NCBI GenBank assembly: GCA_031316155.1
Contig: JALDRB010000010.1
Location: 124,001 to 188,000, forward strand
DNA: 64,000 nt
Source of the DNA: Candidatus Scalindua sp.
GTDB taxonomy: Bacteria; Planctomycetota; Brocadiia; Brocadiales; Scalinduaceae
Reading direction: 5' to 3'
Of this stretch, positions 3,336 through 44,266 are shown piece by piece. Each line of letters opens with the position of its first letter. The stretch's first letter is position 1. Under the pieces are notes generated by a model. That model searched no databases, was not told where the DNA came from, and saw nothing but the letters and a program-made list of their open reading frames with translations. Position numbers and translations under genes: made by a program.

Positions 3336-3428
3336 ATGAATTTCGTGAATAATTGGTACCTTACGGTTTTTCTCTCATTTAATTGTTTGAAATTTTATTT
3401 GCATTTATTTTGTAGGAGTTGTAAACTA

Positions 3429-4280
3429 GTGTACCTTAAATTTCCTTTAAAGGTAATTTTACTAAGCCTTTGCTTCATTACTTTTTTCCATATCTCACCT
3501 TTCGGTCTTTGCGCTCAAGACTTTGATGATGAATACCCTATTGGAATAGACGATACTCTAGATATACAGGTATGGGATAATAAGGATTTAAATTGTGTTG
3601 TTGAGGTTACGAAAGAGGGATCATTTACTTTTCCACTCATCGGTAAGGTTTATACTGCGGGACTTTCTACATTCGAACTTGAAAATCATATCAAAACACG
3701 ATTGTCTGATGGTTATTTGATAAACCCGGAAGTGTCTGTTACTATCAAAACCTATAATAATCAGAAAGTTTTTCTCCTTGGTGAGGTAAAAAACCCCGGG
3801 AACTACATTTTAAAAAATAAAACCCATATTTTGGAATTGATTTCTATGGCTGGTGGTTTTACAGATGCGGCAGGAAGAATTATCAAAATCTTAAGACCGA
3901 TGAAGCTCGAACAAAATAAAAGCGTTAGAAAAACCATTGATCCTGGGAAAAATAGCATAATAATGATAGATCTTGGTAAATACCGTGATGGTGTTGCATT
4001 TAACATGTTTTATGTCGCCAGTGGTGACACGATTTACGTTAACGAGGTACCAAGAATATTTGTAAATGGAGAGGTCAGAAAACCGGGTGAATTCGAATGG
4101 GAAGCAGGCCTAACAGTTCGTCAAGCTGTTTCCCTCGCTGGTGGGTATACAGATAAGGCTGCCTTGAAGCGTACGACTACTATCCGTTTGATAAACGGCA
4201 AAGAAAAAGAGATTAATACGAACATGGGCGACACAGTAATGCCTGATGACATTATAAAGGTTCCAGGACGATATTTTTAA
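3429..4280 (+). CDS. Wza-like polysaccharide export protein (Poly_export and SLBB domains)
   Basis: Periplasmic or outer-membrane part of a capsule/exopolysaccharide exporter. A hydrophobic signal segment (VILLSLCFITFF) ends near GLCAQ. The mature part starts with the family's IGIDDTLDIQVW motif and a Poly_export domain, followed by two SLBB-like repeats, each with a G(E)V-x-PG core (LLGEVKNPGNYIL and VNGEVRKPGEFEW). An open frame reaches back to an ATG at 3336, but the GTG at 3429 has AGGAG ten bases upstream and puts the signal peptide at the N-terminus, so I prefer it (283 residues). The next gene, 24 bases away, is the Wzc-like kinase, so the pair is probably one operon for polymer length control and export. 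Confidence 0.85.
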   Translation: MYLKFPLKVILLSLCFITFFHISPFGLCAQDFDDEYPIGIDDTLDIQVWDNKDLNCVVEVTKEGSFTFPLIGKVYTAGLSTFELENHIKTRLSDGYLINPEVSVTIKTYNNQKVFLLGEVKNPGNYILKNKTHILELISMAGGFTDAAGRIIKILRPMKLEQNKSVRKTIDPGKNSIIMIDLGKYRDGVAFNMFYVASGDTIYVNEVPRIFVNGEVRKPGEFEWEAGLTVRQAVSLAGGYTDKAALKRTTTIRLINGKEKEINTNMGDTVMPDDIIKVPGRYF

Positions 4281-4304: not shown

Positions 4305-6947
4305 ATGAAAAATAAAACGAATCAAGAGCTTTCTTCTACCAAAATATCGTTTGACCAGGAAGTGCATCTCGCTGACTATCTGAACATCATATGGAAACGT
4401 AAATGGATTGCTATCACCTTTTTTATCGTTGTGGTTTGCGTAGTATCTGTCAAAACATACTATACAAAACCTGAATATTTAGCAACAGCACAGATCAGTA
4501 TTAAAGATATTTCTTCTCCTGTGAAAGGTATGGATCAGGTTTCTGAAATGGTGAACACTGGTTTTGAAACACAATGTGAATTGCTCAAAGGCAGTGACAT
4601 TGTGAGAGAGATTTGTGAAAATCTGCAGTTAGAGGAATATGTTACGGCTAACAGGGAAAAACCAAATGTTTTCTCTTCGATGTTGAACAGGATTCAAGGA
4701 TTTATCAGAAAATCTTTGAATCCTGAGAGTTCAAAGACGCCAAAGACTTTCCCTTCATCACTTAAAAAGACCGGGGAGAATGATGAAGAGGAGCTTCTTC
4801 ATCAACAATGGGTAGTGGATTGGTATCTGTCAAAACTCACGGTTAAATCTCTGCCAACTACGAACTTAGTTAACATTAGCTTTTATGACCACTCTCCAGA
4901 AATGGCCGCACGTATTGCCAATTTACATGCAAAAACGTTTGTCGAGAGAAATAATCAATTAAGAATTGAAACTTCCCGAAATACCTTTAACTGGTTAAGA
5001 AAGGAGCTTCGGGAGCAGAAATTGAAGGTTGAAAAATCTGATTTAGCGATTAACAAATTTGCTTTTGAAGAACTCAATTTTCATCAAGTCGATAGCGACA
5101 GTTTTTTTGCCTTACCAGAAATCAAGGAACATTTTGTCATTCAGGACCTTCGCAGACAACTGGTTAATCTGAAGACTAAGAAGATGGAAATGAATACGAA
5201 GTTTGGTCCCAAGCATCCGAAGATGATTGAGATTGACTCCAGCATAAATCAGGTGAAAAAAAGTATTGTTGATGAGGTGAGCCAGTTAAAAGAGACAATA
5301 AGGATAGAGTTGGAACGTGCAGCAGTTGCTGTGGATACTGAAAAGGATGATTTGAGAGAACAGAAACCGCAGATAGCGCAGGTTGATTTGCATGATCAGG
5401 AGAAGTTTACGAATTATGGGATGTTGCAGTTAGAGGCAGATAGTGATAAGGAGATTTATGATATTCTGCTTAAACAAGCCAAAGAGATAGACCTTACCGG
5501 TAACGTGGATGGCAACAACATCAGTATTGTAGATGCGGCAGTTATACCACGGATACCTATAAAACCGAATGTCATCTTTAATCTTCTCTTGTCGATTGTT
5601 ATGGGTTTGGTCTTTGGTGTAGGTTTTGCGTTCTTTTTTGAATATATGGATAAGACTCTGAGGACTCCAGATGATATTATGCAATACCTCGAACTTCCTG
5701 TCTTGGGTTTGTTGCCTTATAACAAGCACTTTAAAAAAACAGAGTCCCTTGTTTTACCAACAAACGGGACACACCTTAAATTAAATGAGCCTCCCAAGGA
5801 GAGGGGGAAAAATAGGACATCATATTATAATGTAACTAGTAATATTATTAGCGGGTTACCTTTTGTTCGGTCAGGAATTTCCGGACAAGTACTTTTATTT
5901 GAGAGTGCTACTGCCGGTGAAGGAAAGTCGACGGTCCTTGCAAACTCAGCCTTGAATCTGGCAAAGGGAGGGCTTCGCGTTGCAATGGTTGATGCAGACA
6001 TGCAACGACCATCCTTGCATATCAAGTTTGGTTTGGATAACGGCAATGTGAACGGGTTGTTAAATATTATGACAAGAATCCTCTCAACAAAAATAGATCA
6101 TGGGAATTTAGACAGTTGCAGCATTGATGATCTGTTTTTTCTTATTTCTTTAAAGAAACAGAGTGGAAAGCTCATTGTTAAAGATGATTCCCAGACAATG
6201 ACCGCTGTCTTTGAAAATGGCCGGCTCATCCATATTCAAAGTCAGGAAGTCCCTTTTGCAAATCGTTTGGGAACAATGCTCCTTCGGGGAGGTTTTATTG
6301 ATGAGAATCAACTGAAAGATGCCTTAGAGAGAAACGAGCGCACAGGACAGCCTATGGGATATATTCTTATTAATTCAGGTTATATTAATCAAAGCAAATT
6401 GCAGGGACCTTTAAAACTTCAAATGGAAGAACATCTTCATAAATTGTTTAGTTGGAAACGTGGTAATTTTGTTTTTGAATCAGGATATGTAGAGACCTAT
6501 GAGGACAGAAGAATCCATTTCCAAGAAGATTATTCACCAATAATAAGTCGTTTGGGCCGCATGGCAGGTAGTCGGTTGGTCGAAAACGAGGTTCTCTCAT
6601 GCTTAAAATCTATAGAGGGTCTTAACCTTTCATTATTAACCGGAGGTATGGATGATTTAAGAAATGAAGGTCCACAGTATTTCACGTTTCTAACAAAGGT
6701 TCTGGATATTTTAAAACAACGTTTTGATGTCGTGCTTGTTGATGCTCCACCGTTATTGGATACAATAGGTAGTGTAAGGTCATTACTCCAGCTGGTTGAC
6801 GGTGTAATCTTTGTGGTTAAATCGGGGCACGCTACCGTAAAAATGGTTAATCAAGCCGCTAGTTACTTGAAAGAGTCCGATGCTAATGTCGTTGGTGCCG
6901 TACTGAATCAATCTAAAAAGGACAGTGGTTACAATTACTATCGATAA
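4305..6947 (+). CDS. Wzc-like tyrosine autokinase with a DUF4388-type domain inside the kinase
   Basis: Inner-membrane polysaccharide co-polymerase fused to a bacterial tyrosine kinase. Order: Wzz domain with TM1 near residues 35-50, a periplasmic coiled-coil stretch, TM2 near 424-447 preceded by a proline-rich PRIPIKP, then the kinase. Walker A TAGEGKST lies near 536-543, Walker A' VDADMQRP near 562 and Walker B VLVDAPP near 813. In the family A' and B are roughly 80 residues apart; here they are about 250 apart. The extra segment (about 614-728) reads like DUF4388/PATAN: SGKLIVKD, FENGRLIH, then two LG-type repeats (RLGTMLLRGGFIDENQL; MGYILINSGYINQSKL), ending KLFSWKRGNFVFESG. The C-terminal tyrosine cluster is reduced to GYNYYR. 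Follows the Wza-like gene by 24 bases. Core function is secure; the role of the insert is unknown. Confidence 0.88.
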   Translation: MKNKTNQELSSTKISFDQEVHLADYLNIIWKRKWIAITFFIVVVCVVSVKTYYTKPEYLATAQISIKDISSPVKGMDQVSEMVNTGFETQCELLKGSDIVREICENLQLEEYVTANREKPNVFSSMLNRIQGFIRKSLNPESSKTPKTFPSSLKKTGENDEEELLHQQWVVDWYLSKLTVKSLPTTNLVNISFYDHSPEMAARIANLHAKTFVERNNQLRIETSRNTFNWLRKELREQKLKVEKSDLAINKFAFEELNFHQVDSDSFFALPEIKEHFVIQDLRRQLVNLKTKKMEMNTKFGPKHPKMIEIDSSINQVKKSIVDEVSQLKETIRIELERAAVAVDTEKDDLREQKPQIAQVDLHDQEKFTNYGMLQLEADSDKEIYDILLKQAKEIDLTGNVDGNNISIVDAAVIPRIPIKPNVIFNLLLSIVMGLVFGVGFAFFFEYMDKTLRTPDDIMQYLELPVLGLLPYNKHFKKTESLVLPTNGTHLKLNEPPKERGKNRTSYYNVTSNIISGLPFVRSGISGQVLLFESATAGEGKSTVLANSALNLAKGGLRVAMVDADMQRPSLHIKFGLDNGNVNGLLNIMTRILSTKIDHGNLDSCSIDDLFFLISLKKQSGKLIVKDDSQTMTAVFENGRLIHIQSQEVPFANRLGTMLLRGGFIDENQLKDALERNERTGQPMGYILINSGYINQSKLQGPLKLQMEEHLHKLFSWKRGNFVFESGYVETYEDRRIHFQEDYSPIISRLGRMAGSRLVENEVLSCLKSIEGLNLSLLTGGMDDLRNEGPQYFTFLTKVLDILKQRFDVVLVDAPPLLDTIGSVRSLLQLVDGVIFVVKSGHATVKMVNQAASYLKESDANVVGAVLNQSKKDSGYNYYR

Positions 6948-14793: not shown

Positions 14794-15735
14794 ATGGCAC
14801 GACCCTGGAGAATACAATATGAAGGTGCAATTTATCACGTCATGTCGAGAGGTGTAGGCAGAGGAGAGATTTTTCTTACCAATGACGATTATTCAAGATT
14901 TTTGGAATATATGGCAAGCGCCAGAGAAAAGTTTAATTTAGATATATTTGCATTTGTCTTGATGGCTAATCATTACCATATTCTTTTAAGAACGAATGAT
15001 GCAAATCTTTCAAGGGTCATGCAATGGATACAGACCGTCATAGCATTTATTACAATCGTAATCATAATCGCTGTGGACATCTTTTCAGGGAAGATATATA
15101 AGAGCGTTTTGTCGAAAACACGAATCTTACTGTCACATTTTAAGTTTATATATACATTTGAACCATACGAGCCGGCATGGTTGAAAAGGTGGAAGAGTAT
15201 AACGAGTAGCTATCACAGATTATGTTAACGTCAGGAAAAGAAACAAGTGGGAACAGCTGAAGCTGTTTTAGAGTGGGACATGTAGTGACAAAGAAGAACC
15301 AGAGGGAATATAGAAAATTGATCCGGAAAGCATCCGGCAGAGAAAATGACTTTCTTGAAGACATAAAGTATGGAATGATTTTGGGAAGTGATAAGTTTGT
15401 GGAGCGGGCGGCATGAAGTTTAGACCGAATTGGGAAATAAATATGCTGACTTCTACCACAAAAAAAAGAGAATAAGTGATGATGGTGTGACTGAAAAGGT
15501 AATAGAAGATAATACAATTGGCAAAATAGATAAGACCACGCTACCACAAAGAAAAAAGAATACTGAGCTTTAGAGATGTAAGTACGTATACATTGAAGAC
15601 GTATACAGGGCTATCAAATAAAGCAACAGTGAGTGAGATGTTTATAAGTATGGGGCGCAGTAAATAAAGCAATACACAACAAGCAAAGTAAACAAGTAAA
15701 GCCTTTAGAAGTGAATGAGAGATTACGCATTCAAG
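14794..15735 (+). pseudogene. REP-associated tyrosine transposase (RAYT, Y1_Tnp), frameshifted
   Basis: IS200-like single-strand transposase of the kind that mobilises short palindromic repeats. Intact at first: MARPWRIQYEGAIYHVMSRG, FLTNDDYSRFL, and the HUH-type motif NHYHILLRT. After MQWIQ the frame is lost; other frames give YYNRNHNRCGHLF, GRY-type basic sequence, YIHLN, then KKNQREYRKLIRKAS, DFLEDIKYGMILGSDKFVE, and finally TYTGLSNKATVSEMF, the C-terminal helix-turn-helix. At least four frameshifts or stops, so not functional as shown. A GGGTCAGACCTTGAAT motif just upstream (about 14729) resembles sequences that flank such genes. Confidence 0.8.
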
Positions 15736-41499: not shown

Positions 41500-42704
41500 A
41501 AATACTGTATATTTGTGACAAGCTGATAACCTTTATCTTGAATGAAATAATAGATCTTCACAACAATAATGACATTTTCATCCTGTCAGAGCATTCTGAA
41601 AAAGCTTATGAAGTTATAAACAAACCTATTTTAATTAAAAATGGCCTCGACAGGAACTATCATAAATTCATCAGCTTTAAAAACAGAAAAGAGAAATATT
41701 TTCATTTCATAACTAAGATATTGTATGATTTTGTTGTTCATCCAATATGCGCCTGTAGAGCTGTAATCAATATTCTAAAATATTATCCAAACCTTAATTA
41801 TGGAATTTCAGATTATCTCGATGTGAGATATTTTTTTGATGCTGAGATCGATGTTATACATTCACCATTTTCAACACCTTCGATAATAGATAAAGCATTT
41901 TTATTATCAAAGATACTTAACGTTCCTTTTACCTTGTCCTTCAGGGCACATGATATTTACGAAGGAGATAATAGTTTAAAAACCCAGAAAAGAATTAAAA
42001 AAATCAGGGAAGCCTCTCAAATAATGACAATCTCTGATTACAATAAAAAATATTTAGAAAAAGCTTTTCATATCAATAAAAATATAGAAATTATCCACAG
42101 CTCAATAGATCCCGACTTTTTCAAGCCAACGAATTTAACGAGATCGCCAAAATCCATAGTTACTGTCTGCAGGCTGCATGAACAAAAAGGCCTTATCTAT
42201 CTTATTAATGCTTGCAACATATTAAATAAAAGAAATATTGACTACACCTGCACAATAATAGGAGAAGGATCAGAAAAGCAGAAATACGATAAGCTTATTG
42301 AAGATTTACAGATTCCCAACATTATCTTTATCAATAATTTGCCATATAACGAAGTTAAAAATCATTTAAATAATTATACGGTATTTGTATTACCTTGTAT
42401 AATTGCTTCTGACGGGAAGAGGGATATTTTAGCGAATTCTCTGAAAGAAGCAATGTCAATGGAGATTCCGGTTATAACATCAAACATTTGTGGTATTGAA
42501 GAATTGGTGGATGATGGTATTAATGGATTTTTAGTTCCTCCTCAAAATGCTCAGGCTATTGCCGATGCTATTGAAAAAATATTCAACAACCCCGACCTTG
42601 GAAGAAAAATTGGTAAAGAGGGTAGAAAAAAAATAAAGAAAGAATTCAACATAAAAATTGAAGCAGGAAAAATAGAAAAAATTTTTAAAGAAGTAAAATT
42701 ATAG
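41496..42704 (+). CDS. Glycosyltransferase family 4
   Basis: 402 residues, GT-B fold. N-terminal half: ILYICDKLITFILNEI, the segment LDVRYFFDAEIDVIHSPFS and FTLSFRAHDIYEG. C-terminal half: SIVTVCRLHEQKGLIYLI, TIIGEGSEK, FVLPCIIASDGKRDILANSLKEAMSMEIPVI and GIEELVDDGINGFLV, the donor-sugar site with the conserved Glu. Starts on ATGA overlapping the GT2 stop. Its 3' end lies against a minus-strand TonB-receptor gene with no intergenic space. Confidence 0.9.
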   Translation: MKILYICDKLITFILNEIIDLHNNNDIFILSEHSEKAYEVINKPILIKNGLDRNYHKFISFKNRKEKYFHFITKILYDFVVHPICACRAVINILKYYPNLNYGISDYLDVRYFFDAEIDVIHSPFSTPSIIDKAFLLSKILNVPFTLSFRAHDIYEGDNSLKTQKRIKKIREASQIMTISDYNKKYLEKAFHINKNIEIIHSSIDPDFFKPTNLTRSPKSIVTVCRLHEQKGLIYLINACNILNKRNIDYTCTIIGEGSEKQKYDKLIEDLQIPNIIFINNLPYNEVKNHLNNYTVFVLPCIIASDGKRDILANSLKEAMSMEIPVITSNICGIEELVDDGINGFLVPPQNAQAIADAIEKIFNNPDLGRKIGKEGRKKIKKEFNIKIEAGKIEKIFKEVKL

Positions 42705-44266
42705 CCCAAACTAAACTCAAATGTATTGATCTTTTCCGGATCAAGGTTGGGATTACCTAACCTGGACGTGTTGTTTTTCGTAAACATTTCCACGAAACTT
42801 GGAGCCCTGAAGGCAGTCGCAAAAAGCAGCTTCAGATGCGCGTCTTCCATAAATCGCCATGTCAACCCAGCCCTTGGATTGGTTGTGCCTCCAAATCTTG
42901 AATAATCGTCATGCCTCACACCAATCGTGAAATCAATGTCTTCTGTAATGTTCCACTCATCCTGCAAATAAACCGCCCATAACTGTTGGGTTAATCTTTT
43001 TCGCCAGATAGGCAAGGTATCAGTAAAGTCTGTAAGTGATAGTAGTGGAGCAGATGTTAAAGGATGAAAATTGGTATCATAATTTATATCACTCTGATGT
43101 ATCCATTCGTATTGAAAACCTGCCGTCAATCTATTTCTCTCAGAAACATCATAATTAACTTGATTTTCAAAACCAATAATCCTTATTTTGTTACGTGGGT
43201 GCATCTTCACACCATCAGGATAAACAAATGGCCCCGATGCAAAACCCTTTGGAAATGCTTCAAAAAACACATTATAGTTAAACTGATCATAATATACTTT
43301 AGGAATTATGTCCAGTTTATCAGCCAGGTTCAGGTTATATCCCAACTCAGAAAATATATGGGTATTTCTTTCCTCAGTATCATCATTTAAGGCATCATTA
43401 ATACCTATATATGCTTCCCTTCTCTTCTTCATATACTTGGTTTTTAATTCCAGATTTTTGTATGACAGCTTCAAATTAAGGTCTGTTTTCTCTTTCTCAT
43501 TCTGAGACCTCCCGGGACTCTTGGAAAAAGGTGCCGGGAAAAGAGCATCCTGTTCAACTATTTCACTATGACCTCCGGTGTCAAAGTAATCGAAATAACC
43601 GGAAATCTTCAGCTCTCCGCATTCCTTACCAAATAGCATGTTGTAATTCTGCGTATCAAAGCTTCCACCAGCTGCTGTCCATTGAAAGCCGTCAATATCA
43701 TCTGTGTCCTTTGTTATCACGTTAATAACAGCAAGAAACGCATTCCGGCCATAAAGAGCTGAACCTGGCCCTCTGATAATTTCTATTTTCTTAGCATTCT
43801 CGAGAACAAGATCGTTATAGTGATTAGTGAAACCGCCGGCAAACGGCCAATTCATCGAATGGCCGTCAATCAATAACTTTAATTTGGGAGAACTGAAATC
43901 AAGCACACCTCTCATACCAAACTCTTCTTCTCCTGTCCTGTCATTAGATATATCAAAACCCGGCACTATTCTCAAGAGATCCGCTAATGTCCTGAATCCC
44001 ATCTCTTTTATCTGGTTTGCCGTGATTACGGCAACGATACCCGGTGCCTTGCTGATTGGGGTTTCGTGTCTTGTTGTAATGCTTACCATTCCCTCTGCCT
44101 GTAACCATCTGAGTTCTTCCAAGATTGACGGTGATGGTTTCTGACTTTCAGCAGGAATTGAAGTTTCTTCTGAAAAGAGCGAAAAAGTTAAACTGAATAT
44201 AATTGCAGTGAGTGTGATTAAACCCGAAGGTACCGGTAATAGAGTGACAACTTTTATATTTCTCAT
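42551..44266 (-). CDS. TonB-dependent receptor, C-terminus truncated
   Basis: Outer-membrane beta-barrel uptake receptor. A signal segment (VTLLPVPSGLITLTAIIF), then a plug domain with ISKAPGIVAVITANQIKEMG, LADLLRIVPGFDI, GMRGV and IIRGPGSALYGRNAFLAVINVITK. The barrel begins (DEWNITEDIDFTIGVRHDDY, RAGLTWRFMEDAHLKLLFATAFRAP, NPNLDPEKINTFEFSLGY) but after about 42705 the frame is only the antisense of the glycosyltransferase end. A complete receptor would have roughly 100-200 more residues. So the real receptor part ends near 42705 and the barrel is incomplete: a rearrangement removed its end. Ligand unknown. Confidence 0.75.
   Translation of the reverse strand: MRNIKVVTLLPVPSGLITLTAIIFSLTFSLFSEETSIPAESQKPSPSILEELRWLQAEGMVSITTRHETPISKAPGIVAVITANQIKEMGFRTLADLLRIVPGFDISNDRTGEEEFGMRGVLDFSSPKLKLLIDGHSMNWPFAGGFTNHYNDLVLENAKKIEIIRGPGSALYGRNAFLAVINVITKDTDDIDGFQWTAAGGSFDTQNYNMLFGKECGELKISGYFDYFDTGGHSEIVEQDALFPAPFSKSPGRSQNEKEKTDLNLKLSYKNLELKTKYMKKRREAYIGINDALNDDTEERNTHIFSELGYNLNLADKLDIIPKVYYDQFNYNVFFEAFPKGFASGPFVYPDGVKMHPRNKIRIIGFENQVNYDVSERNRLTAGFQYEWIHQSDINYDTNFHPLTSAPLLSLTDFTDTLPIWRKRLTQQLWAVYLQDEWNITEDIDFTIGVRHDDYSRFGGTTNPRAGLTWRFMEDAHLKLLFATAFRAPSFVEMFTKNNTSRLGNPNLDPEKINTFEFSLGYNFTSLKIFSIFPASIFMLNSFFIFFLPSLPIFLPRSGLLNIFSIASAIA

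Follow-up and report, generated by a model that had tools for sequence, protein, structure and literature searches.

A Wzc-type BY-kinase of anammox bacteria with a DUF4388-MshEN module, a predicted c-di-GMP sensor, inside its catalytic domain

The window analysed here, a stretch of 64,000 nucleotides from Candidatus Scalindua, holds an intact open reading frame with an ATG start whose 880-residue product is a Wzc-like polysaccharide co-polymerase and tyrosine autokinase, with a composite DUF4388 module lodged inside its catalytic domain. The kinase gene and its upstream neighbour carry the following features, all on the forward strand.

3336..4280 (+): wza-like outer-membrane polysaccharide export gene, directly upstream of the kinase gene (Poly_export 1.8e-19, SLBB 5.6e-24)
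4305..6947 (+): 880-aa kinase of the Wzc-like kind (polysaccharide co-polymerase and tyrosine autokinase), harbouring the DUF4388-MshEN module
4359..4610 (+): Wzz (chain-length determinant) domain, residues 19-102 (Pfam PF02706, 6.2e-06)
5424..5636 (+): GNVR domain, residues 374-444 (Pfam PF13807, 8.6e-13)
5802..5840 (+): Tyr-containing linker NRTSYYNVTS, residues 500-512, in place of the canonical ExxRxxR helix (alignment, counts)
5904..5933 (+): Walker A, ATAGEGKST, residues 534-543 (sequence; GEGK invariant in a 10-sequence alignment)
5979..6011 (+): Walker A', VAMVDADMQRP, residues 559-569 (both Asp invariant in the same alignment)
6075..6605 (+): inserted composite DUF4388 (PATAN + MshEN) module, residues 591-767 (Pfam, collinearity, predicted fold)
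6099..6242 (+): PATAN beta-sheet half, residues 599-646 (secondary structure of the predicted model)
6264..6335 (+): MshEN motif I, RLGTMLLRGGFIDENQLKDALERN, residues 654-677 (NCBIfam, phmmer, Foldseek)
6336..6350 (+): five-residue spacer ERTGQ, residues 678-682 (length as in MshE, PMC5013675)
6351..6422 (+): MshEN motif II, PMGYILINSGYINQSKLQGPLKLQ, residues 683-706 (NCBIfam, phmmer, Foldseek)
6423..6566 (+): C-terminal PATAN part, with a strand at 721-726 and a helix at 744-754 (alignment, predicted model)
6729..6752 (+): Walker B, VVLVDAPP, residues 809-816 (Asp invariant in the 10-sequence alignment)
6927..6944 (+): short C-terminal tyrosine tail GYNYYR, residues 875-880 (sequence, Tyr counts)

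The framework is that of a periplasmic Wzz and GNVR region fused to a cytoplasmic kinase (Pfam PF02706, PF13807), and a Pfam search of the full protein recovers the P-loop kinase as two fragments, at about 530-590 and 780-870, flanking DUF4388. The Walker lysine, within the core GEGKST at residues 538-543, and the Walker aspartates are invariant in an alignment of ten insert-bearing kinases. The DxDxR sequence of Walker A' reads DADMQ, with glutamine at the arginine position, which is variable across the insert clade, and alignment with canonical kinases shows the PPNP motif lost or variable in the clade. The protein matches BY-kinase entries of the PDB by sequence and VpsO by fold (TMt 0.75). 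We regard it as a divergent BY-kinase relative, supported by homology and by the catalytic motifs apart from the Walker A' arginine, but lacking the ExxRxxR oligomerisation helix, which is usual in characterised members without being a catalytic motif; tyrosine autophosphorylation is inferred, in the absence of activity data.

From D563 of Walker A' to D813 of Walker B the distance is 250 residues, and the Walker A-to-B spacing is 276 residues in the insert clade versus 106 in most canonical kinases of Brocadiales; a few values of 205 or 658, and the listing of a few insert kinases as canonical, are errors of the pattern matching. On its N-terminal side the module comes directly behind the helix after Walker A'; on its C-terminal side the chain rejoins the kinase ahead of the strand that runs into Walker B. 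The same point is occupied in 19 independent genes, so the insertion is neither chance nor an assembly error; an assembly artefact or frameshift fusion was rejected on this ground, the identical insertion recurring in 19 genes of 15 genomes. We likewise rejected an opposite-strand gene, as the minus-strand, frame-1 reading is full of stops.

What is the inserted segment? Pfam assigns residues 599-732 to DUF4388 (PF14332; E 8.8e-20, 71.4 bits against a cut-off of 25), and NCBIfam places an MshE-related c-di-GMP motif, NF053729, at 654-701 (46.6 bits against a cut-off of 38). The layout RLGTMLLRGGFIDENQLKDALERN - ERTGQ - PMGYILINSGYINQSKLQGPLKLQ comprises 24+5+24 residues, which is the spacing that defines MshEN (PMC5013675). 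By phmmer, the insert aligns with c-di-GMP-bound MshE (5htl) at E 2.2e-4, both motifs ungapped, and with PilF (6f8l) at E 3.6e-10. Modelled alone, with an alignment of 36 natural relatives, residues 591-767 are predicted to form a separate domain (pLDDT 84.5, pTM 0.77), in which a four-helix bundle is placed before the last strand of a small beta sheet. Foldseek superposes this bundle on c-di-GMP-bound structures of MshE and of PilF (GSPII-B) with rmsd 0.7-1.2 A over 52-53 columns at probability 1.00, and on 5htl specifically with rmsd 1.0-1.2 A over 53 columns at 36% identity; the Foldseek E-values exceed 0.001 because only about 53 of the 177 residues are shared, the rest of the query being unmatched. 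Stand-alone DUF4388 domains of other planctomycetes are collinear with the whole insert, so the kinase received one complete module. A plain PATAN domain without a nucleotide site was rejected as a full description, since profile, sequence and fold all link the LG repeats to MshEN. We describe the insert as MshEN-like, an assignment inferred from sequence and prediction without binding data: the relaxed motif and the fold are met, the strict consensus is not. How the module meets the enzyme is unresolved: a joint kinase-plus-insert model from ten sequences reached a pLDDT of only 60.8, with the insert at low confidence and its contact with the active site undefined.

A sequence-only reading of this locus had proposed a tyrosine autokinase with a DUF4388-type domain inside its catalytic domain, and this held in position, family and size, as did its figure of about 250 residues between Walker A' and Walker B. 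That reading would have fallen had the segment failed to match Pfam DUF4388 or had structure prediction shown no separate domain, and neither occurred; its further check, whether related Wzc proteins of the phylum carry the insertion, found it at the same point in 15 of 62 Brocadiales genomes. Its description of the segment as DUF4388/PATAN with a repeated LG-type unit held and can be refined: the LG unit is the MshEN c-di-GMP motif pair set in a PATAN fold and not generic PATAN, so the likely signal can be named. The regulatory role it suggested for the insertion is supported as the natural reading, with regulation itself still an inference.

Whether the predicted site is intact is the central question for this interpretation. 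The protein keeps 11 of 14 contact positions drawn from the MshE and PilF papers; when the insert was shuffled 5000 times, the best window nearly always scored 4-8, and it was at most 8 in all but one shuffle, which gave 10. The equivalents of MshE R9, L10, G11, L25, G40, G47, L54 and Q61 are invariant in 17 kinases of the clade, and MshE glycines 11, 18, 40 and 47, corresponding to G656, G663, G685 and G692, are glycine in 15-17 of the 17. By inspection, both motifs fit the relaxed pattern of Wang et al. ([RKPN]hG...[QNKRYWST], PMC5013675). They do not meet the strict extended consensus, with its R/K/L start and Q end: motif I ends in N and motif II begins with P. These deviations are clade-wide, the Q32 equivalent (motif I position 24) being N in 15 of 17 kinases, C in one and S in one, and the R38 equivalent (motif II position 1) being P in all 17, and they are the main reason for doubt. 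Published mutants point both ways. Changes at MshE Gln32 altered affinity no more than about fivefold (PMC5013675), PilF Q190E or Q218E retained binding at 0.5-1 uM (PMC11731258), and PilF GSPII-C, whose sole deviation is P335, binds c-di-GMP, though it has three motifs (PMC11731258); in PilF GSPII-A constructs, Ser at the R38 position caused complete loss of measurable binding (PMC12002112). Within the clade, mean pairwise identity reaches 78% in MshEN; it is 52-59% across the kinase parts, 53% in the part of PATAN N-terminal to the motifs, and 43% across the periplasmic and transmembrane regions. MshEN is thus the most conserved stretch of the protein, and since its identity exceeds that of every other part, the putative sensor is under the strongest constraint. 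We consider it likely that the insert binds c-di-GMP, an inference made without binding data.

The architecture is real and conserved within the anammox lineage: a Wzc-type (PCP-2a) BY-type kinase with an MshEN-PATAN module, predicted to fold autonomously, inside its catalytic domain. Brocadiales yielded 19 insert-bearing copies, spread over three families and 15 of 62 genomes, with two copies in the present genome, including a paralogue, and four in a congener. Named records with the insert come from Ca. Scalindua, Jettenia, Brocadia, Kuenenia and Anammoxibacter and from a metagenome-assembled contig labelled 'Nitrospirae bacterium HyVt-450'. Among 392 genomes sampled across Planctomycetota, no insert-bearing kinase was found outside Brocadiales, all 13 positive genomes belonging to that order; DUF4388 itself occurs in 174 of 294 planctomycete genomes. 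In Nitrospirota, one of 296 sampled genomes has an insert-bearing kinase, and stand-alone DUF4388-MshEN proteins are common there. The plasmid matches inspected were only ordinary tyrosine autokinases with at most about 65% query coverage. A kinase-core tree sets the insert clade apart from its canonical sisters (support 1.0) and nests the Nitrospirota copy, weakly supported, among anammox copies. This placement suggests horizontal transfer of the copy without proving it, and contamination or a binning error of the metagenome-assembled genome is not excluded; donor and direction stay unresolved because deep branches are weak in both the insert and the kinase-core trees. That gene (L037:4410-7073), the only insert-bearing kinase found outside Brocadiales, adjoins Poly_export and BBP2 porin genes.

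The insertion is accompanied by a second change, which the sequence-only reading missed and which is larger than the loss it did report. None of 18 insert-bearing kinases has the ExxRxxR helix that precedes Walker A, and a Tyr-containing linker takes up its position; all six canonical sisters have an ExxR/KxxR form. Linkers of the insert clade carry 2-5 tyrosines, and canonical kinases have at most one there. The claim that the terminal tyrosine cluster is nearly lost held only in part: the cluster is reduced and short, and GYNYYR keeps three tyrosines in the last six residues. Across the clade the last 24 residues hold 1-6 tyrosines, with 2-6 in most members, and these counts reject complete loss. 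In VpsO the cytoplasmic ExxRxxR supports oligomerisation, or ring assembly, and its mutation lowers VPS to levels like those of the deletion (PMC7485978), and Wzc operates via phosphorylation-driven assembly cycles (PMC11986026). From this literature and the loss of ExxRxxR, we infer that the inserted module may govern ring assembly.

The fourth copy of Scalindua SCAELEC01 (L107 / L032) is the most degraded paralogue, with Walker A reading GDGKST, Walker A' reading DTDHQ and the G18 position of MshEN motif I occupied by D; it is possibly drifting toward a pseudokinase.

The genomic setting is one of polysaccharide export. A wza-like gene also lies directly upstream of the kinase in the Jettenia, Brocadia, Anammoxibacter, Kuenenia and Nitrospirae loci that were checked, and CapD-like, UDP-sugar dehydrogenase, ABC transporter and Wzy_C genes lie nearby in several insert-kinase loci. 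The flanking genes of Scalindua SCAELEC01 locus L027 are the same as here, and the paralogue in the present genome (contig C21) is preceded by a WecA/MraY-like gene and a short wza-like gene, as read from the sequence. Genome-wide searches gave 11 GGDEF matches, 11 MshEN matches and one match to a low-molecular-weight tyrosine phosphatase, so both c-di-GMP signalling and a phosphorylation cycle are plausible in this organism. The phosphatase match (C11:33055-33447) falls within a 556-residue open frame, so a fusion with a further domain is possible. Upstream of the wza-wzc pair, at 609-2726, lies a 705-residue open frame for a divergent Ser/Thr protein kinase (Pkinase 1e-12 over part of its length), and such a gene is also upstream in locus L027.

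How does this protein compare with known systems? With Wzc, VpsO, Etk and CapAB (PCP-2a) it has in common Wzz and GNVR, the order of Walker A, A' and B and the Wza neighbour; it differs in some 170 extra residues between A' and B, the Tyr-containing linker before Walker A, the lack of the ExxRxxR helix and PPNP, and the short tyrosine tail. With the MshEN (GSPII) domains of MshE and PilF it shares two 24-residue motifs, a five-residue spacer and a four-helix bundle, which here sit within a PATAN beta fold that itself interrupts the catalytic domain of a different enzyme, with N at motif I position 24 and P at motif II position 1. The stand-alone DUF4388 proteins of Planctomycetota and Nitrospirota are collinear over the whole insert and carry the MshEN pair in the same place, but are stand-alone or terminal and not inside a kinase, and many are stricter (12-14 of 14 contacts). 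NfrB, a c-di-GMP-controlled glycosyltransferase, offers a precedent for MshEN attached to an exopolysaccharide machine (PMC8669469), and an NCBIfam NfrB match covers residues 643-710; the present protein differs in being a co-polymerase/kinase that carries its module internally. The BY pseudokinase EcpK is likewise a divergent BY-kinase fold in EPS synthesis, but it has neither Walker motifs nor a nucleotide sensor and stands as a protein of its own (PMC12004946). In the open-access literature searched (subscription journals were outside its scope), we found no described case of MshEN or c-di-GMP joined with a bacterial tyrosine kinase.

We propose that the protein is a c-di-GMP-gated Wzc controlling exopolysaccharide polymerisation and export, a reading to which we give a modest edge (probability roughly 0.62) and in which both binding and regulation are inferred. 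In this model, c-di-GMP would bind in the MshEN bundle and alter how the module packs on the kinase core; the altered packing would gate ring assembly or tyrosine autophosphorylation, and this in turn would control polymerisation by Wzy and export via the adjacent Wza. The domain architecture, separate fold, near-complete contacts, strong conservation, polysaccharide context and genomic GGDEF are supported by sequence or prediction; ligand binding, direction of control and coupling through oligomerisation are inferred only. c-di-GMP usually raises EPS, and the direction is guessed as activation on that basis. A bolder version holds that c-di-GMP, acting inside the catalytic domain, replaces the lost ExxRxxR contact as the ring-assembly switch; this we offer tentatively, and would lean slightly against it.

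The strongest rival, in our view unlikely, is that the insert is a protein-docking PATAN/DUF4388 domain whose MshEN part no longer binds nucleotide and which recruits a partner to the Wzc ring, such as a glycosyltransferase, Wzy or a type IV pilus/secretion ATPase. In its favour are the two fixed deviations from the strict c-di-GMP motif, the loss of binding in XpsE/GspE-type MshEN domains (PMC5013675), and the fact that a protein interface would equally fit high conservation. PATAN response regulators of cyanobacteria act on type IV pilus machinery (compare PMC7690835, PMC9090330), which also favours docking. Against it, the guanine-pocket glycines and most leucines are kept, unlike in the eight-fold-changed XpsE, and conservation peaks in the ligand-pocket motifs and not in the PATAN beta half (78% versus 53%).

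A different rival concerns the enzyme: the kinase part may be a pseudokinase or ATP-dependent scaffold, with ring state set by c-di-GMP or the insert alone, tyrosine phosphorylation irrelevant and the outcome EcpK-like. The loss of ExxRxxR and PPNP, the replaced DxDxR arginine and the short tyrosine tail speak for it, and BY pseudokinases do exist (EcpK, PMC12004946). We nevertheless find it improbable, as the Walker A lysine, the Walker A' aspartate pair and the Walker B aspartate are invariant in the ten-sequence alignment, EcpK lacks all three Walker motifs and the tail tyrosines, most members here keep 2-6 tail tyrosines, and the genome has a low-molecular-weight phosphatase match. Neutral accretion, a tolerated surface-loop insertion without regulatory consequence, could draw on the insertion point lying in a segment that joins two core elements and on flanks that still align with canonical kinases; it is most improbable, given that the module is retained in 19 copies over 15 genomes of three families and that its MshEN part is more conserved than the surrounding enzyme.

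The cues that control BY-kinases have been called largely unexplored (PMC5035731), and under the c-di-GMP-gated reading a receptor for a named second messenger within the catalytic domain would supply such a cue. Anammox bacteria, which are put to use in nitrogen removal, live as granules that extracellular polymers hold together; the suggested route would tie c-di-GMP to polymer export in them. If the bolder version were true, a single polypeptide would unite c-di-GMP signalling, tyrosine phosphorylation and polymer export in these bacteria. Part of the DUF4388 'domain of unknown function' family also gains a predicted ligand, because many stand-alone members share the motif pair with a stricter consensus. 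Many of those at loci L046-L075 and L110-L124 of Planctomycetota and Nitrospirota carry an MshEN pair with 12-14 of 14 contact positions, and on these contacts long-form DUF4388 is predicted to bind c-di-GMP; shorter DUF4388 matches of about 100 residues, with no room for an MshEN pair, are present as well.

Two further observations concern the rest of the window and were read from the sequence only. At 14794-15228 an open frame begins like a transposase of the REP-associated type and breaks off early, probably as a remnant. On the reverse strand, at 42551-44266, a TonB-receptor-like frame looks truncated, with part of the barrel seemingly missing, and the end encoding its C terminus overlaps a glycosyltransferase frame on the opposite strand by about 150 bases.
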